A DNA stretch of 64,000 nt from Alphaproteobacteria bacterium (GTDB lineage Bacteria > Pseudomonadota > Alphaproteobacteria > Rhodobacterales > Rhodobacteraceae): positions 248,001 through 312,000 of the forward strand of contig JAUIFH010000004.1 in assembly GCA_030429495.1 (NCBI GenBank), in the 5' to 3' direction. The notes beneath the pieces were generated by a model that was given only the letters and a program-made list of their open reading frames with translations, did not search any database and was not told the origin of the DNA. A program made the position numbers and the translations under genes. The stretch's first letter is position 1. Every line of letters begins with the position of its first letter. Of this stretch, positions 18,624 to 45,347 are shown piece by piece.

Positions 18624-19706
18624 TCAGGCCATGCCGCCGCCGATCAGCCGCTGCGCAAGCCGCCCATAGGCCTCGGCGATCGGCCCTTCGCCCACCGCGA
18701 TCGGCGTGCCGGTGTCGCCGGCCAGCCGCACATCAAGGCTGAGCGGGATTTCCCCCAGGAACGGCACGCCAAGCTTGTCGGCCTCTGCCGCCACGCCGCC
18801 ATGGCCGAAGATATGCGCCTCATGCCCGCAGTTCGGGCAGATATAGGCGGACATGTTCTCGATCAGGCCGAGGATCGGTGTCTTGAGCTTGCCGAACATG
18901 TCGATTGCACGGCGCGCATCGAGAAGTGCCACATCCTGAGGCGTCGAAACGATCAATGCTCCGGTCACATGGCTTTTCTGGCAAAGTGTAAGCTGCACGT
19001 CGCCCGTGCCGGGCGGCAGATCGACGATGAGAACGTCAAGGTCGCCCCAGGCAACCTGCCCCAGCATCTGCTGAAGCGCACCCATCAGCATCGGGCCGCG
19101 CCAGACGACCGCCTCACCCTCCTCCAGCATGAGACCGATCGACATGAAGGTGACGCCATGCGCCTGCAAGGGAATGATCGTCTTACCATCGGGCGAGGCC
19201 GGACGCTTCGACACGCCCATCATGCGCGGCTGCGAGGGGCCATAGATATCGGCGTCAAGCAGACCGACCCGACGACCCTGCCGCGCCAGCGCAACGGCAA
19301 GGTTCGACGACACCGTGGACTTTCCGACACCACCTTTCCCCGATCCGACGGCAAGGATGCGGTCGACGCCGGCGATCCGGGCGGGACCGGCCTGGGGCGT
19401 CGGATGGCCGCCGATCTTCAAGCTGGGCGTCGTCTTTTGCCCCGCCCGCTGTTGCGCCGGCCCGTGCGCGGTGAGCACGACGGAGGCCGATGTCACACCG
19501 GGCAGCGCGTGGATCGCCGCCTCTGCTGCCTCGCGCACCGGCCCCATCCAGCGCGCGGTGTCCGGGTCAGGTGCCTCGATCACAAACCGGACCGCGCCAC
19601 CCTCGACGGAAAGGGCCCGCACAAGGTCGCGTGAGACGAGGTCGCCGCCATCGGGCAGCGCCAGGCGGGAGAGGGTGGCAAGAACGGCGTCGCGGGTCAC
19701 GGTCAT
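18624..19706 (-). CDS. mrp: Mrp/ApbC/NBP35-type iron-sulfur carrier ATPase
   Basis: Cytoplasmic P-loop NTPase (360 aa) that holds and delivers iron-sulfur clusters. An N-terminal MIP18/DUF59-like domain (about residues 1-90) precedes the deviant Walker A ILAVGSGKGGVGKSTVSSNLA. The cluster-binding pair is CPNC in SAYICPNCGHEAHIFGHGG. The ATG at 19706 (MTVTRDAVLATL) is preferred to one eight codons upstream because it follows GGAGGATTCC-like sequence. It is a single gene with no obvious operon partner. Confidence 0.94.
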   Translation of the reverse strand: MTVTRDAVLATLSRLALPDGGDLVSRDLVRALSVEGGAVRFVIEAPDPDTARWMGPVREAAEAAIHALPGVTSASVVLTAHGPAQQRAGQKTTPSLKIGGHPTPQAGPARIAGVDRILAVGSGKGGVGKSTVSSNLAVALARQGRRVGLLDADIYGPSQPRMMGVSKRPASPDGKTIIPLQAHGVTFMSIGLMLEEGEAVVWRGPMLMGALQQMLGQVAWGDLDVLIVDLPPGTGDVQLTLCQKSHVTGALIVSTPQDVALLDARRAIDMFGKLKTPILGLIENMSAYICPNCGHEAHIFGHGGVAAEADKLGVPFLGEIPLSLDVRLAGDTGTPIAVGEGPIAEAYGRLAQRLIGGGMA

Positions 19707-19865
19707 GGAATCCTCCGGCATTGTTCCCAATGTGCCGCCTTTCGCGGCAACGGCAAGCCCGGATGCTCAGGGCGTGGGCAATTCGGCCAAGTTACCGTTA
19801 CGGCAGGTAAAATCGGCGTGATAGGCCATGCGATTTCTGCATAGCAGCATTGATGATTGAGGGTA

Positions 19866-19894
19866 TTGTGCAGATGCAGCATGGGGTCCATGTT
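19866..19894 (+). promoter_or_regulatory. possible heat-shock sigma (RpoH-type) promoter
   Basis: TTGTGC (19866-19871) and CATGTT (19889-19894) are 17 bp apart, and the -10 region reads CCATGT, which fits the RpoH-type CCATNT element. Transcription would start near 19901, giving a leader of about 47 nt. In R. sphaeroides the homologous DUF1127-CcsR unit is driven by RpoHI/RpoHII, which agrees. The -35 match is weak. Confidence 0.4.
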
Positions 19895-19947
19895 AGCCCC
19901 AACAGCGCACAAAACGGCGCTAGAGATGAACCGCGAAAGTAAGAGCA

Positions 19948-20163: not shown

Positions 20164-20172
20164 GTTTCCGTC

Positions 20173-20202
20173 CTCCGGCGCTCCTCCTCCCTCGCGCCGG
20201 GG
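20173..20202 (+). ncRNA. CcsR-like sRNA hairpin 1
   Basis: Stem CCGGCGC (20175-20181) with GCGCCGG (20194-20200), extendable by two pairs. The loop holds CCTCCTCCC, the defining motif of CcsR sRNAs. It lies in the 3' UTR of the DUF1127 gene and is probably released by processing. Confidence 0.78.
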
Positions 20203-20208
20203 ACAGAC

Positions 20209-20240
20209 GCAGCGGCTCTCCTCCTCCCTGATGCCGCTGC
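20209..20240 (+). ncRNA. CcsR-like sRNA hairpin 2
   Basis: A perfect 8-bp stem GCAGCGGC (20209-20216) with GCCGCTGC (20233-20240) around a 16-nt loop containing CCTCCTCCC. A small extra hairpin GGGCC-AAAA-GGCCC (20249-20262) separates it from copy 3 and may mark the 3' end of the mature RNA. Confidence 0.78.
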
Positions 20241-20270
20241 ACCTTTTCGGGCCAAAAGGCCCAACCGGAA

Positions 20271-20302
20271 CGCCGCGCCCCTCCTCCTCCCTGGGTTCGG
20301 CG
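20271..20302 (+). ncRNA. CcsR-like sRNA hairpin 3
   Basis: Stem CGCCG (20271-20275) with CGGCG (20298-20302), followed after a small mismatch by CCC/GGG (20278-20280 with 20293-20295). The loop has CCTCCTCC. It is the least regular stem of the five. Confidence 0.7.
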
Positions 20303-20310
20303 GAACGAAG

Positions 20311-20346
20311 TGCGGCGGTGACCTCCTCCTCCGTGTCACCGCCGCA
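20311..20346 (+). ncRNA. CcsR-like sRNA hairpin 4
   Basis: The strongest stem of the array: 12 perfect base pairs, TGCGGCGGTGAC (20311-20322) with GTCACCGCCGCA (20335-20346), and a 12-nt loop with CCTCCTCCG. The last motif base differs from the other copies. A second hairpin TTCCGGT-ctg-ACCGGAA (20365-20381) follows. Confidence 0.78.
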
Positions 20347-20398
20347 TTTTCGAACTTCCGGCGGTTCCGGTCTGACCGGAATTGCCAAAGTGAAGGCG

Positions 20399-20432
20399 GG
20401 CGGCGCCCACTCCTCCTCCCTGAGGCGCCGCC
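20399..20432 (+). ncRNA. CcsR-like sRNA hairpin 5
   Basis: A perfect 9-bp stem GGCGGCGCC (20399-20407) with GGCGCCGCC (20424-20432) and a 16-nt loop containing CCTCCTCCC. It is the last copy before the terminator. Rhodobacter sphaeroides is known for four such RNAs, so five hairpins would be one more. Confidence 0.76.
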
Positions 20433-20488
20433 GGTCCTCACCTGATTGCGGCGGTCCCAACCTTCTTCCCGGGATCGTGATTGCGACT

Positions 20489-20515
20489 GGCGGTGCCTTT
20501 GGGCGCCGCCTTTTT
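20489..20515 (+). terminator. Rho-independent terminator of the DUF1127-CcsR unit
   Basis: A 9-bp stem GGCGGTGCC (20489-20497) with GGCGCCGCC (20502-20510; one G-U pair), a 4-nt loop TTTG and a run of five T (20511-20515). It ends the plus-strand transcript 22 bp before the convergent uvrD stop. Confidence 0.88.
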
Positions 20516-20536: not shown

Positions 20537-22891
20537 TCAGAACGGGATGTCGTCCGCCGCCTCGGCCGCGACGACAAAGCTGGCCACGACATGCTTGGTC
20601 CCGGCCTTGTCAAAGGCAACTTCAAGCTTGTCGCCCTCGATCCCCTCGACGGACCCGTAGCCGAACTTCTTGTGGAAAACCCGGTCGCCAAGGGTAAAGG
20701 CCGAGACCGCTTCAAGGTCGATCACCACGTTGCGCGCCTCGCGCGGCTGGCTGACAGGGCGGGCCCCTGCGCGGTCCTGCATCCGTTTCCAACCCGGCGA
20801 GTTGTAGACATCGGCCCGCGCGGCGCGGTCCTCGATGTGCGACGCGCCGAAGCTCACAGCAGAGCCGTAGCCACCGAGGAAATTCACCGATGGCAGTTCG
20901 TCCACATGTTCTTTCGGCAGTTCATCAATAAACCGTGACTTAAATTGGCTTTGCCACTGCCCGTAGACCCGGCGGTTCCCGGCGAATGAGATGGTGCACA
21001 GCTCCTCGGCGCGGGTGATGCCGACATAGCCAAGGCGGCGCTCCTCTTCGAGGCCTTTGAGACCACTCTCATCCATCGACCGCTGGGACGGGAAGAGCCC
21101 GTCCTCCCATCCCGGCAGGAAGACCACGGGAAATTCCAGCCCCTTCGCCGCGTGCAGCGTCATGATGGTGATCTTCTCTTCGGCATCCTCGCTGTCATTG
21201 TCCATGATCAGCGAGACATGTTCGAGGAAGCCCTGAAGATTGTCGAAACTTTCCAGCGCCTTGACCAGTTCCTTGAGGTTTTCGAGCCGCCCCGGCGCCT
21301 CGGGCGTCTTGTCGTTCTGCCACATGGCGGTATAGCCGGATTCGTCGAGGATCGTTTCGGCAAGGCGCACGTGGTCGTAGTCCGGCGAAAGCGTCGCCCG
21401 GTGCCAGCGGTCGATGTTCTCGACAAAGGCACGAAGCTGCGCACCGCCCTTGCCACCGATCTGGCCGGAGGCAATGCAATAGCGCGCGCCTTCCAGAAGG
21501 CTCACGCCATCCTCGCGCGCCTGCCGCTGAATCGTCTGCTGCGCCTTGTCGCCGAGGCCGCGTTTGGGTGTGTTGACCACGCGTTCGAAGGCAAGGTCAT
21601 CGTCAGGCGACACGGCCAGCCGGAAATAGGCCATCGCATCGCGAATCTCGAGCCGTTCGTAAAAGCGCGGGCCGCCGATGACTCGGTAGGGCAGACCGAT
21701 GGTCAGAAACCGGTCCTCGAACGCGCGCATCTGGTGGGAGGCACGGACAAGGATCGCCTGATCGTTCAGGCCGCGCGGTTCCCGCCCCCGCGTACCGCGC
21801 TGAATCGCTTCGGCCTCTTCCCCGATCCAGCGCGCCTCTTCCTCACCGTCCCAATGGCCGATGAGGCGCACTTTTTCGCCGCCCTTCGCCTCGGTCCAGA
21901 GGGTCTTGCCGAGTCGTCCCGCATTGGCCGAGATCAGGCCCGAGGCGGCAGCGAGGATGTGCTCGGTAGAGCGGTAGTTCTGTTCCAGCCGGATCACCTT
22001 GGCGCCGGGAAAATCCTTTTCAAACCGCAGGATGTTGCCGACCTCGGCACCGCGCCAGCCATAGATCGACTGGTCGTCATCGCCGACACAACAGATGTTC
22101 TTGTGTTTGGCGGCAAGGAGGCGCAGCCAGAGATACTGGGCGATGTTCGTATCCTGATATTCGTCGACCAGGATGTAGCGAAACCAGCGCTGGTACTGTT
22201 CGAGAATGTCAGGATGGGTCTGGAAGATCGTGACGACATGCAGCAACAGATCGCCGAAATCGCAGGCATTCAGCGTCAGCAGGCGCTGCTGATAGGCCGC
22301 ATAAAGTTCGGTCCCCATGTTGTTGAAATGACTCGCGTCCGAGGCGGGCACCTGCTCCGGCCCCAGGGCGCGGTTCTTCCATTGATCGATCAGCCCGGCG
22401 AGCTGACGTGCAGGCCAGCGCTTCTCGTCGATGTTCGCCGCCGCGATCACCTGTTTCAGCAGCCGGATCTGGTCGTCAGTATCGAGGATCGTGAAATTGG
22501 ACTTGAGGCCCACCAGCTCTGCATGGCGACGCAGGATCTTCACGCTGATCGAGTGGAATGTGCCCATCCACGGCATCCCCTCAATCGCCTGCCCCATCAG
22601 GCGCCCGACGCGTTCCTTCATCTCGCGCGCGGCCTTGTTAGTGAAGGTCACCGCCAGAATTTCGTTCGGGCGCGCCGCGCCCCGCCCCAGAAGATGCGCG
22701 ATGCGGGCGGTGAGCGCCCGGGTCTTGCCTGTCCCCGCGCCGGCCAGCATCAGCACCGGCCCTTCCAGCGTTTCAACCGCCTCCCGCTGTGCCGGGTTCA
22801 ACCCGACGAGATGGGGCGCGGGCCGAACGGCCATCGCCCGGGCAGAGAGGGACGCGCCTTCGAAGGCGTCAGATTCATCGGAACTGCTCAT
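20537..22891 (-). CDS. uvrD: UvrD/Rep-family ATP-dependent DNA helicase
   Basis: SF1A helicase of 784 aa that unwinds DNA 3' to 5' in repair. Helicase motifs are all present: Q-motif LNPAQREAVETLEGP, Walker A AGAGTGKTRALTARI, Walker B LVDEYQDTN, GDDDQSIYGWRGA, QNYRSTEHIL, motif V MTLHAAKGLEFPVVFLPGWEDGLFP region and motif VI EERRLGYVGITRA. The C-terminus has the Tudor-like DRVFHKKFGYGSVEGIEGDKLEVAFD that UvrD/PcrA use to bind RNA polymerase. I prefer the ATG at 22891; a TTG three codons upstream is possible. It is convergent with the DUF1127-CcsR unit. Confidence 0.95.
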   Translation of the reverse strand: MSSSDESDAFEGASLSARAMAVRPAPHLVGLNPAQREAVETLEGPVLMLAGAGTGKTRALTARIAHLLGRGAARPNEILAVTFTNKAAREMKERVGRLMGQAIEGMPWMGTFHSISVKILRRHAELVGLKSNFTILDTDDQIRLLKQVIAAANIDEKRWPARQLAGLIDQWKNRALGPEQVPASDASHFNNMGTELYAAYQQRLLTLNACDFGDLLLHVVTIFQTHPDILEQYQRWFRYILVDEYQDTNIAQYLWLRLLAAKHKNICCVGDDDQSIYGWRGAEVGNILRFEKDFPGAKVIRLEQNYRSTEHILAAASGLISANAGRLGKTLWTEAKGGEKVRLIGHWDGEEEARWIGEEAEAIQRGTRGREPRGLNDQAILVRASHQMRAFEDRFLTIGLPYRVIGGPRFYERLEIRDAMAYFRLAVSPDDDLAFERVVNTPKRGLGDKAQQTIQRQAREDGVSLLEGARYCIASGQIGGKGGAQLRAFVENIDRWHRATLSPDYDHVRLAETILDESGYTAMWQNDKTPEAPGRLENLKELVKALESFDNLQGFLEHVSLIMDNDSEDAEEKITIMTLHAAKGLEFPVVFLPGWEDGLFPSQRSMDESGLKGLEEERRLGYVGITRAEELCTISFAGNRRVYGQWQSQFKSRFIDELPKEHVDELPSVNFLGGYGSAVSFGASHIEDRAARADVYNSPGWKRMQDRAGARPVSQPREARNVVIDLEAVSAFTLGDRVFHKKFGYGSVEGIEGDKLEVAFDKAGTKHVVASFVVAAEAADDIPF

Positions 22892-22982
22892 GCGTGGCAA
22901 TCTAGCCGCATCGGAAAATGATTAAAAGAGAAGTTCACACTCTGTTCCCCTTCTTTCGCTGGACTTTCGCGAGCGCGATGCC

Positions 22983-43637: not shown

Positions 43638-45347
43638 TCAGAACAGGAAGTAGCGTTGCGCCATGGGAAGGACTTCCGCCGGCTGGCAAGTCAGAAGTTC
43701 ACCGTCGGCGCGCACCTCGTACGTTTCGGGATCGACCTCCATCTTCGGAAGCACCGTATTGAGAACCATGTCGGCCTTGCCGATCGTGCGCGTGCCGTGG
43801 ACCGCGAACACGTCCTTTGCGAGGCCGAGTTTCTGCCGGATCCCCGCCGCCTCTGCCGCCGCCGAAACGAAAGTCACGGCGGTCCGCTCGACCGAGCGGC
43901 CAAGCGAGCCCCACATCGGGCGGGAATAGACCGGCTGCGGCGTCGGGATCGAGGCGTTCGGATCACCCATCTGTGCGCAGACGATGGTGCCCGACATCAG
44001 GACCATTTCCGGCTTCACGCCGAAGAAGGCCGGATGCCACAGGACAAGGTCTGCGCGCTTGCCCTCCTGCACCGATCCGATCTCGCGCGAGACGCCGTGG
44101 GCGATGGCCGGGTTGATCGTGTATTTGGCAATGTAGCGGCGGACGCGGAAGTTGTCGTTCTGACCCGTCTCCTCGGGCAAGCGGCCGCGCTGCTTCTTCA
44201 TCTTGTCCGCCGTCTGCCAGGTGCGGATTATTACCTCGCCCACCCGGCCCATCGCCTGGCTGTCCGACGCGATGATCGAGAATGCACCCAAGTCGTGCAG
44301 GATGTCCTCGGCGGCGATCGTTTCGCGCCGGATGCGGCTTTCGGCAAAGGCCACATCCTCGGGGATGGACTTGTCGAGGTGGTGGCAGACCATCAGCATG
44401 TCGAGATGCTCTTCGATCGTATTCACCGTGAAGGGTCGTGTGGGATTGGTCGACGACGGCAGCACGTTGGCGTCGCCGCAAATCTTGATAATGTCAGGCG
44501 CATGCCCGCCGCCCGCACCCTCGGTGTGGAAGGCGTGGATCGTGCGGCCCTTGATTGCATTGATGGTGTTCTCGACGAAGCCCGACTCGTTCAGCGTGTC
44601 GGTGTGGATCATGACCTGCACGTCCATGTCGTCGGCAACAGACAGACAGCAGTCGATGGCGGCGGGTGTCGTGCCCCAGTCTTCGTGCAGCTTCATCGCG
44701 CAGGCGCCGGCCTCGACCATCTCGACCAGCGCGCCGGGAAGTGATGCATTGCCTTTGCCCGAAATGCCGATGTTCATTGCCAGTCCGTCGACGGCCTGCA
44801 ACATCCGCCCGATATGCCAGGGTCCTGGCGTGCATGTCGTGGCGAGCGTCCCATGGGCTGGCCCGGTTCCACCGCCAAGCATCGTCGTGATGCCCGAGTG
44901 GAGCGCGTCCTCTACCTGCTGCGGGCAGATGAAGTGGATGTGGCTGTCGAATCCGCCCGCCGTCAGGATGCGGCCTTCGCCGGCAATTACCTCGGTGCCG
45001 GGCCCGACTATGATATCGACGCCGGGCTGGGTGTCGGGGTTGCCCGCTTTGCCGATCCGGTGGATGCGCCCGTCTCTCAACCCAAGGTCGGCCTTGTAGA
45101 CGCCGGTGTGATCGACGATTAGCGCGTTGGTGATGACCGTATCGACAGCGCCATCAGCCCGCGAAGCCTGACTTTGGCCCATGCCGTCGCGGATCACTTT
45201 GCCACCGCCGAACTTCACCTCCTCGCCATAGGTCGTCAGGTCGCGTTCAACCTCGATGAACAAATCCGTATCGGCAAGCCTCACGCGGTCTCCGACGGTC
45301 GGGCCGTACATTGCGGCGTAGGCGGCGCGGCCGATCTCTCGCGGCAT
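43638..45347 (-). CDS. ureC: urease alpha subunit
   Basis: Catalytic dinickel subunit (569 aa, standard length). It shows [16 protein letters not shown] at the start, [14 protein letters not shown] (nickel histidines), the carbamylated lysine in [30 protein letters not shown], the flap sequence [13 protein letters not shown] with catalytic histidine, and [11 protein letters not shown]. It hydrolyses urea to ammonia and carbamate in the cytoplasm. It starts one base after the ureB stop. Confidence 0.98.

Follow-up and report, generated by a model that had tools for sequence, protein, structure and literature searches.

The window analysed here (the whole stretch of 64,000 nucleotides) contains an operon which is most probably of the CcaF1-CcsR (cuckoo RNA) type, transcribed, regulated and processed as proposed below, and built from four hairpin pairs; we give this reading a probability of roughly 0.85. 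The array is of a kind already published, since in the CIN1 locus, as described in PMC10253847, cuckoo RNAs often, not always, lie 3' of a short DUF1127 gene, with CcsR-like RNAs among them. New are the corrected number of units, a series of decaying loops and the proposed promoter link.

The operon, its host and its family

The DUF1127 gene, the motif hairpins and the terminator follow each other in the order of a CcaF1-CcsR-type locus (Table 1), as a sequence-only reading of this DNA had proposed, and the five CCTCCTCC hairpins 3' of the gene and the terminator behind them were all recovered. The DUF1127 protein gave a single match in its own genome (3.8 Mb in 26 contigs, the window lying on contig C22) at E 0.001. 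Its closest named relatives are the proteins of Defluviimonas sp. WL0050 and D. salinarum (77% identity), beside those of an alphaproteobacterial MAG (77%), D. aestuarii (75%) and Albidovulum inexpectatum (59%), and the host of the array is a Defluviimonas-like bacterium. A DUF1127 match was absent from two genus genomes, G004 (77% complete) and G007 (89% complete). At L037 (genome G028) several DUF1127 matches and many cuckoo hairpins are clustered in one stretch. Elsewhere in the window the Rfam 5_ureB_sRNA model matches at 44908-45193 (+) with 101.9 bits, antisense within a frame at 43638-45347 (minus) named urease large subunit-like by its look only; this match probably reflects coding conservation, not a small RNA.

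Table 1. Features of the operon and its surroundings, in window coordinates unless a locus is named
Feature	Position	Strand	Basis or remark
Mrp/ApbC-type gene	18624-19730	minus	one flank of the operon
VtlR/LsrB-type box TGCATAGCAGCATTG	19838-19852	+	13/15 match to the reverse-complemented published VtlR motif
TTGTGC -35-like element fused with second TGCA/GCAGCA half-site	19866-19882	+	invariant in 50 promoters selected by it
-10-like element CATGTT	19889-19894	+	17 nt 3' of TTGTGC; CATGTT in 27/50, CATCTT in 7/50
DUF1127 gene, CcaF1-like, 71 aa	19948-20163	+	PF06568, 52.3 bits
Unit 1 hairpin A, motif loop	20170-20204	+	own fold, Rfam CcsR1 model, covariation
Unit 1 hairpin B, motif loop	20209-20240	+	own fold, Rfam CcsR1 model
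Motif-free hairpin 3' of unit 1	20249-20262	+	retained in aligned genus members; GC to AU at one pair
Unit 2 hairpin A, motif loop	20271-20302	+	own fold, Rfam CcsR1 model
Unit 2 hairpin B, loop CCTCCTCCG	20306-20352	+	own fold, Rfam CcsR1 model, covariation
Unit 3 hairpin A, stem retained, motif gone	20360-20386	+	intact or partly decayed loop there in relatives
Unit 3 hairpin B, motif loop	20395-20436	+	own fold, Rfam CcsR1 model
Unit 4 hairpin A, decayed loop AACCTTCTTCCC	20446-20486	+	relatives L015 and L017 with CTCCTCCC
Terminator, in the position of unit 4 hairpin B	20489-20510	+	within the weak CcsR1 match 20444-20515
UvrD-type helicase gene	20537-22900	minus	other flank, convergent with the operon
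Two CTGCNNNGCAG sites	about 777-815 of locus L119	reverse strand of fetched locus	as expected of a PhaR operator

The covariance search with the CcsR family, which had been suggested as a check, gave matches at the hairpin pairs, but none of the scores reached the curated threshold of 65.3 bits. Three matches of the CcsR1 model (RF02791) cover one pair each, at 20164-20245 (45.8 bits, the best), 20268-20350 (35.9) and 20354-20439 (23.5); a fourth at 20444-20515 is weak (18.1 bits, E 0.15) and insufficient alone. The best score elsewhere in the window genome is 17.7 bits. With a best score under the threshold, the array is not filed as Rfam CcsR1 proper. With E 1e-5 or better, RF02791 was found in 92 of 120 family genomes and in none of the 14 control genomes, while scores above the curated cut-off occurred in 7 of the 120; a single array of this kind is present in the window genome.

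In its published description, CcaF1-CcsR1-4 of R. sphaeroides shares with the window a 71-aa DUF1127 gene, CCUCCUCCC-loop hairpins two per unit and a terminator, and the R. sphaeroides-like locus L079 also shares the promoter elements. The window differs in that three of the eight motif loops are lost, its fourth motif loop ends in G, the conserved hairpin at 20249-20262 is added and its Rfam score stays under the cut-off. The Rfam family ar14 (RF02344), which we take to be SmelA075/A099, matches the window with 34.3 and 28.7 bits, both below its cut-off of 58.8. Similarly to the window, ar14/SmelA075 and SmelA099 of Rhizobiales carry several CCUCCUCCC-loop hairpins with free stems, as described in PMC3927594.

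Hairpin pairs and the decay of loops

The window contains 13 copies of CCTCCTCC, where 3.0 would be expected and 100 shuffles gave 8 at most; seven of these copies (overlaps counted separately) fall within the array stretch. A stem around a single motif is weak evidence, because shuffled flanks often form such stems (7 pairs are reached in 28%, 8 pairs in 14%); the six sites outside the array have stems of 5-8 pairs versus 8-16 in the array, where 7-12 bp had been given earlier. It is the conservation across the genus, and not the single stems, which establishes the hairpins. In the alignment of seven genus members (the window, L010, L011, L013, L015, L017 and L021, chosen as alignable among 20 genus loci) 96.5% of the cells pair. 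Changes on both sides were found at 19 of 83 pairs, where shuffles gave 8.6 (none of 500 reached this number) and slid structures 1-4 pairs, controls which lean toward the structure since it was taken as the consensus of the same alignment, with 83 of 96 pairs kept and 13 long-range, gapped or odd pairs removed by hand. Stem covariation, whose lack the sequence-only reading had named as a refutation, is present in the genus, and its view that the loop is kept while the stems differ was borne out: the stems covary and most loop columns are fixed.

We also agree that the loop motif resembles the anti-Shine-Dalgarno sequence. CCTCCTCC stands in all five motif loops, as had been claimed, but the full 9-mer CCUCCUCCC only in four of them, the fourth loop (SL4, CCUCCUCCG) reading CCTCCTCCG. 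Of the two hairpins that had been regarded as possible spacers, 20249-20262 is motif-free and kept in the aligned genus, whereas 20365-20381 is a lost motif hairpin (20360-20386); the decayed hairpin at 20446-20486 was absent from the earlier list. The hairpin at 20249-20262 is of a GGGCC/GGCCC type and lies in the same place in all six aligned relatives, with one covarying pair.

The unit of the array is the hairpin pair. The CcsR1 model itself consists of two hairpins with the motif in each, RS0680a was described as 'two stem loops ... each comprises an aSD motif' (PMC3927594), and 2-4 motif hairpins per RNA were given for cuckoo RNAs (PMC4504443). The distances between loops in 30 related loci are bimodal (35-49 nt in 96 of 176, at least 60 nt in 76, others in 4), and the window has gaps of 37, 63, 42 and 87. 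Locus L079, the second-best family match (104 bits), which appears to come from a Rhodobacter sphaeroides-like genome, has exactly four hairpin pairs with a frame upstream that is Mrp-like by eye.

As hairpins 3A and 4A are decayed and the terminator occupies the place of the eighth hairpin, the window array is best read as four pairs in which five of eight motif loops are left: units 1 and 2 are complete, units 3 and 4 are decayed, and the three hairpins without a motif loop are 3A, 4A and 4B, the last being now only the terminator. The relatives preserve stages of this loss. At the position of 3A we found CCTCCTCCC in L013, CTTCCTCCC in L011 and CACCCTCCC in L010, so that a series runs from an intact motif through one change and more changes to the window, where the motif is gone and a stem of 12 pairs is retained. 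At the position of 4A, where L015 and L017 retain CTCCTCCC, the motif is lost in L010, L011, L013 and L021 as it is in the window. The last hairpin of L030 and of L034 bears the motif, and a run of T stands behind it.

These observations weigh heavily against the idea that the array encodes five one-hairpin CcsR RNAs, a one-copy expansion over CcsR1-4. Five motif loops do exist, but CcsR1 is an RNA of two hairpins, hence five loops are not five CcsRs; moreover the loop spacing comes in pairs, relatives retain the motif at the places where the window has lost it, and L079 has four pairs. On these grounds 'five CcsRs, one extra' was rejected as very improbable, and the 'one more copy' of the sequence-only reading was counted in the wrong unit. 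Comparison of copy numbers among relatives did not show an enrichment in the window either, since 13 of the 18 complete genus arrays have more loops. These arrays (the window included) hold 4 to 8 loops, namely 4 in one, 5 in four including the window and 6-8 in thirteen; the counts are lower bounds, because the script, which accepts stems from 6 pairs upwards, misses some weak hairpins. From the 20 loci, L012 (cut by a contig end) and L029 were left out.

Promoter and candidate regulator

The arrangement TTGTGC-N17-CATGTT suggests a promoter of the RpoH type, and an RpoHI/RpoHII promoter was described for the CcaF1-CcsR operon of R. sphaeroides (PMC10253847). The box upstream of it resembles the VtlR motif CAATGCAGCCATGCA (PMC12595884), and departs at one of the seven core positions GCAT-N3-TG-N3-T (T to A; core from PMC7486931). 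We have compared 50 distinct upstream stretches, selected by the TTGTG...GCAGCA -35 element and by two or more motifs in the 1500 bases that follow it. The upstream element, which was outside the selection criteria, is mostly TGCATRGCAGCATTG and starts 28 (41/50) or 27 (9/50) bases before TTG. Compared with the reverse complement of the VtlR motif, the box has one mismatch in 22 promoters, two in 22, three in 5 and five in 1; a match of at least 12/15 is thus present in 49 of the 50, kinship among them being ignored, and shuffled upstream sequence gives two mismatches or fewer in 0.03%. Where this reverse complement has T, the Rhodobacteraceae box has mostly A, else G.

Loci chosen by DUF1127 similarity only (one per genome, from 30 of the 35 genomes in which a match exists) gave at most two mismatches in 25 of 30 and at most three in 27. 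L036 and L038 have 7 mismatches in the box and also lack a proper array, while L025, which has four motifs in a row yet a poor box with 4 mismatches, counts against the association. Among 39 named loci two mismatches or fewer were found in nine, namely L039-L046 and, with the box on the other strand, L056; the genomes of L039-L044 had already been in the first set. At DUF1127 loci that are more distant the VtlR box is mostly missing, so that it is tied to the Rhodobacteraceae arrays and not to DUF1127 genes generally. The pattern TGCATNGCNGCANTG has three matches in the window genome, and the two besides the promoter box lie inside long reading frames.

A related known system is the VtlR/LsrB regulon of Brucella and Agrobacterium, in which a LysR protein activates DUF1127 genes or an orthologue, and small RNAs, via a CAATGCAGCCATGCA-type box (PMC12595884, PMC7486931), whereas the box of the window precedes a DUF1127-cuckoo operon in Rhodobacteraceae. 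A VtlR/LsrB link to CcaF1/CcsR was not found in the open-licence papers searched; PMC12501420 names both, LsrB in the reference list only. Each of five other alphaproteobacterial genomes, from five families which may not all be Rhizobiales, has a LysR gene adjoining trxB, which was taken as LsrB; the trxB linkage of LsrB was described for Rhizobiales in PMC11975290. The profile of these five proteins singled out one gene in each of nine genomes (362-380 bits, the next at most 174). The candidate of the window genome (L149) scored 375 bits against 169 for the next LysR there, and it is 47-51% identical to the five profile proteins over its length; at its N-terminal, DNA-binding end 56, 54, 48 and 56 of 65 residues are identical to four of the five. 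No LysR gene was found within 1.5 kb of trxB in the window genome. Judged by protein similarity, the window genome and all eight other genomes tested encode a VtlR/LsrB-like regulator, and LsrB has been called unique to Rhizobiales from a tree of few species (PMC11975290).

Our first idea for the owner of the box was PhaR, which was later demoted. That the upstream palindrome would be an operator of this protein of polyhydroxybutyrate control, and not a VtlR-type box, agrees with the fit of CTGCATAGCAG at 19837-19847 to the CTGCNNNGCAG of R. sphaeroides PhaR (PMC12542648) and with the finding of a gene for a PhaR-type protein (PF07879) in all 10 genomes tested; additionally, in the window genome two CTGCNNNGCAG sites 28 bp apart precede a phasin-like gene (named from sequence and place) adjoining the PhaR gene. 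We consider it unlikely, however, because the three middle bases, variable in the phasin-side sites, are A (50), T (49) and G or A (33 and 17) in the 50 operon promoters, 11 of the 50, L079 among them, have another base in place of the A of GCAG, and the second element has four bases, not three, between TGC and GCA. The VtlR/LsrB-type box is the reading that we carry forward.

Proposed mechanism and its meaning

In the mechanism that we propose, a single transcript would start near 19901 from the RpoH-like promoter and end at the terminator at 20489-20510, and a VtlR/LsrB-type LysR regulator about 50-63 bp upstream of the start is, as we infer, the probable activator. RNase E, assisted by the DUF1127 protein, would probably process the 3' UTR into small RNAs of two hairpins each, and processing of CcsR RNAs by RNase E/CcaF1 was described in R. 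sphaeroides (PMC10253847). The C-rich loops would pair with purine-rich ribosome-binding sites and so lower the translation or stability of mRNAs under stress.

CcsR1-4 were reported to target flhR (PMC8307010), and by homology such targeting may be carried over to the window array. Perfect 9-nt loop complements before ATG were found 7 times in the window genome, where the backwards pattern gave 2; a frame of only 19 codons follows one of these 7 sites. In five relatives 28 hits stood against 8 for the backwards pattern; 10 of the 28 open frames below 30 codons, and one lies antisense to the array of G001. Among the 28, near-identical orthologues in G001 and G002 and a distant homologue in G010 share the site before substrate-binding-like genes. 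No orthologue was shared between the 7 hits and the 28 (blastp 1e-5, 35 frames). Because of the 7 versus 2 sites and the lack of a shared orthologue, specific conserved targets are unsupported. This negative search and the anti-SD sequence in the loop would suit a general sponge, whose loops act on many mRNAs via Shine-Dalgarno sequences without specific targets; such a function is conceivable but rather doubtful, as flhR has been named as a specific target (PMC8307010).

The operon of paired hairpins also bears on the reach of its putative regulator. We find it somewhat probable, from the conserved promoters and the candidate gene, that regulators of the VtlR/LsrB type govern DUF1127 genes and small RNAs beyond Rhizobiales as well and that the same regulator drives the Rhodobacteraceae DUF1127-cuckoo operon. 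The loop decay series, where the motif disappears before the stem does, helps to define the needed part of the CcsR unit. If the box works, a regulator would be named for a widespread stress-RNA operon, in contradiction to PMC11975290 on LsrB as unique to Rhizobiales; one conserved alphaproteobacterial regulator would then govern different small RNAs in each order, AbcR in Rhizobiales and CcsR-type RNAs in Rhodobacteraceae.
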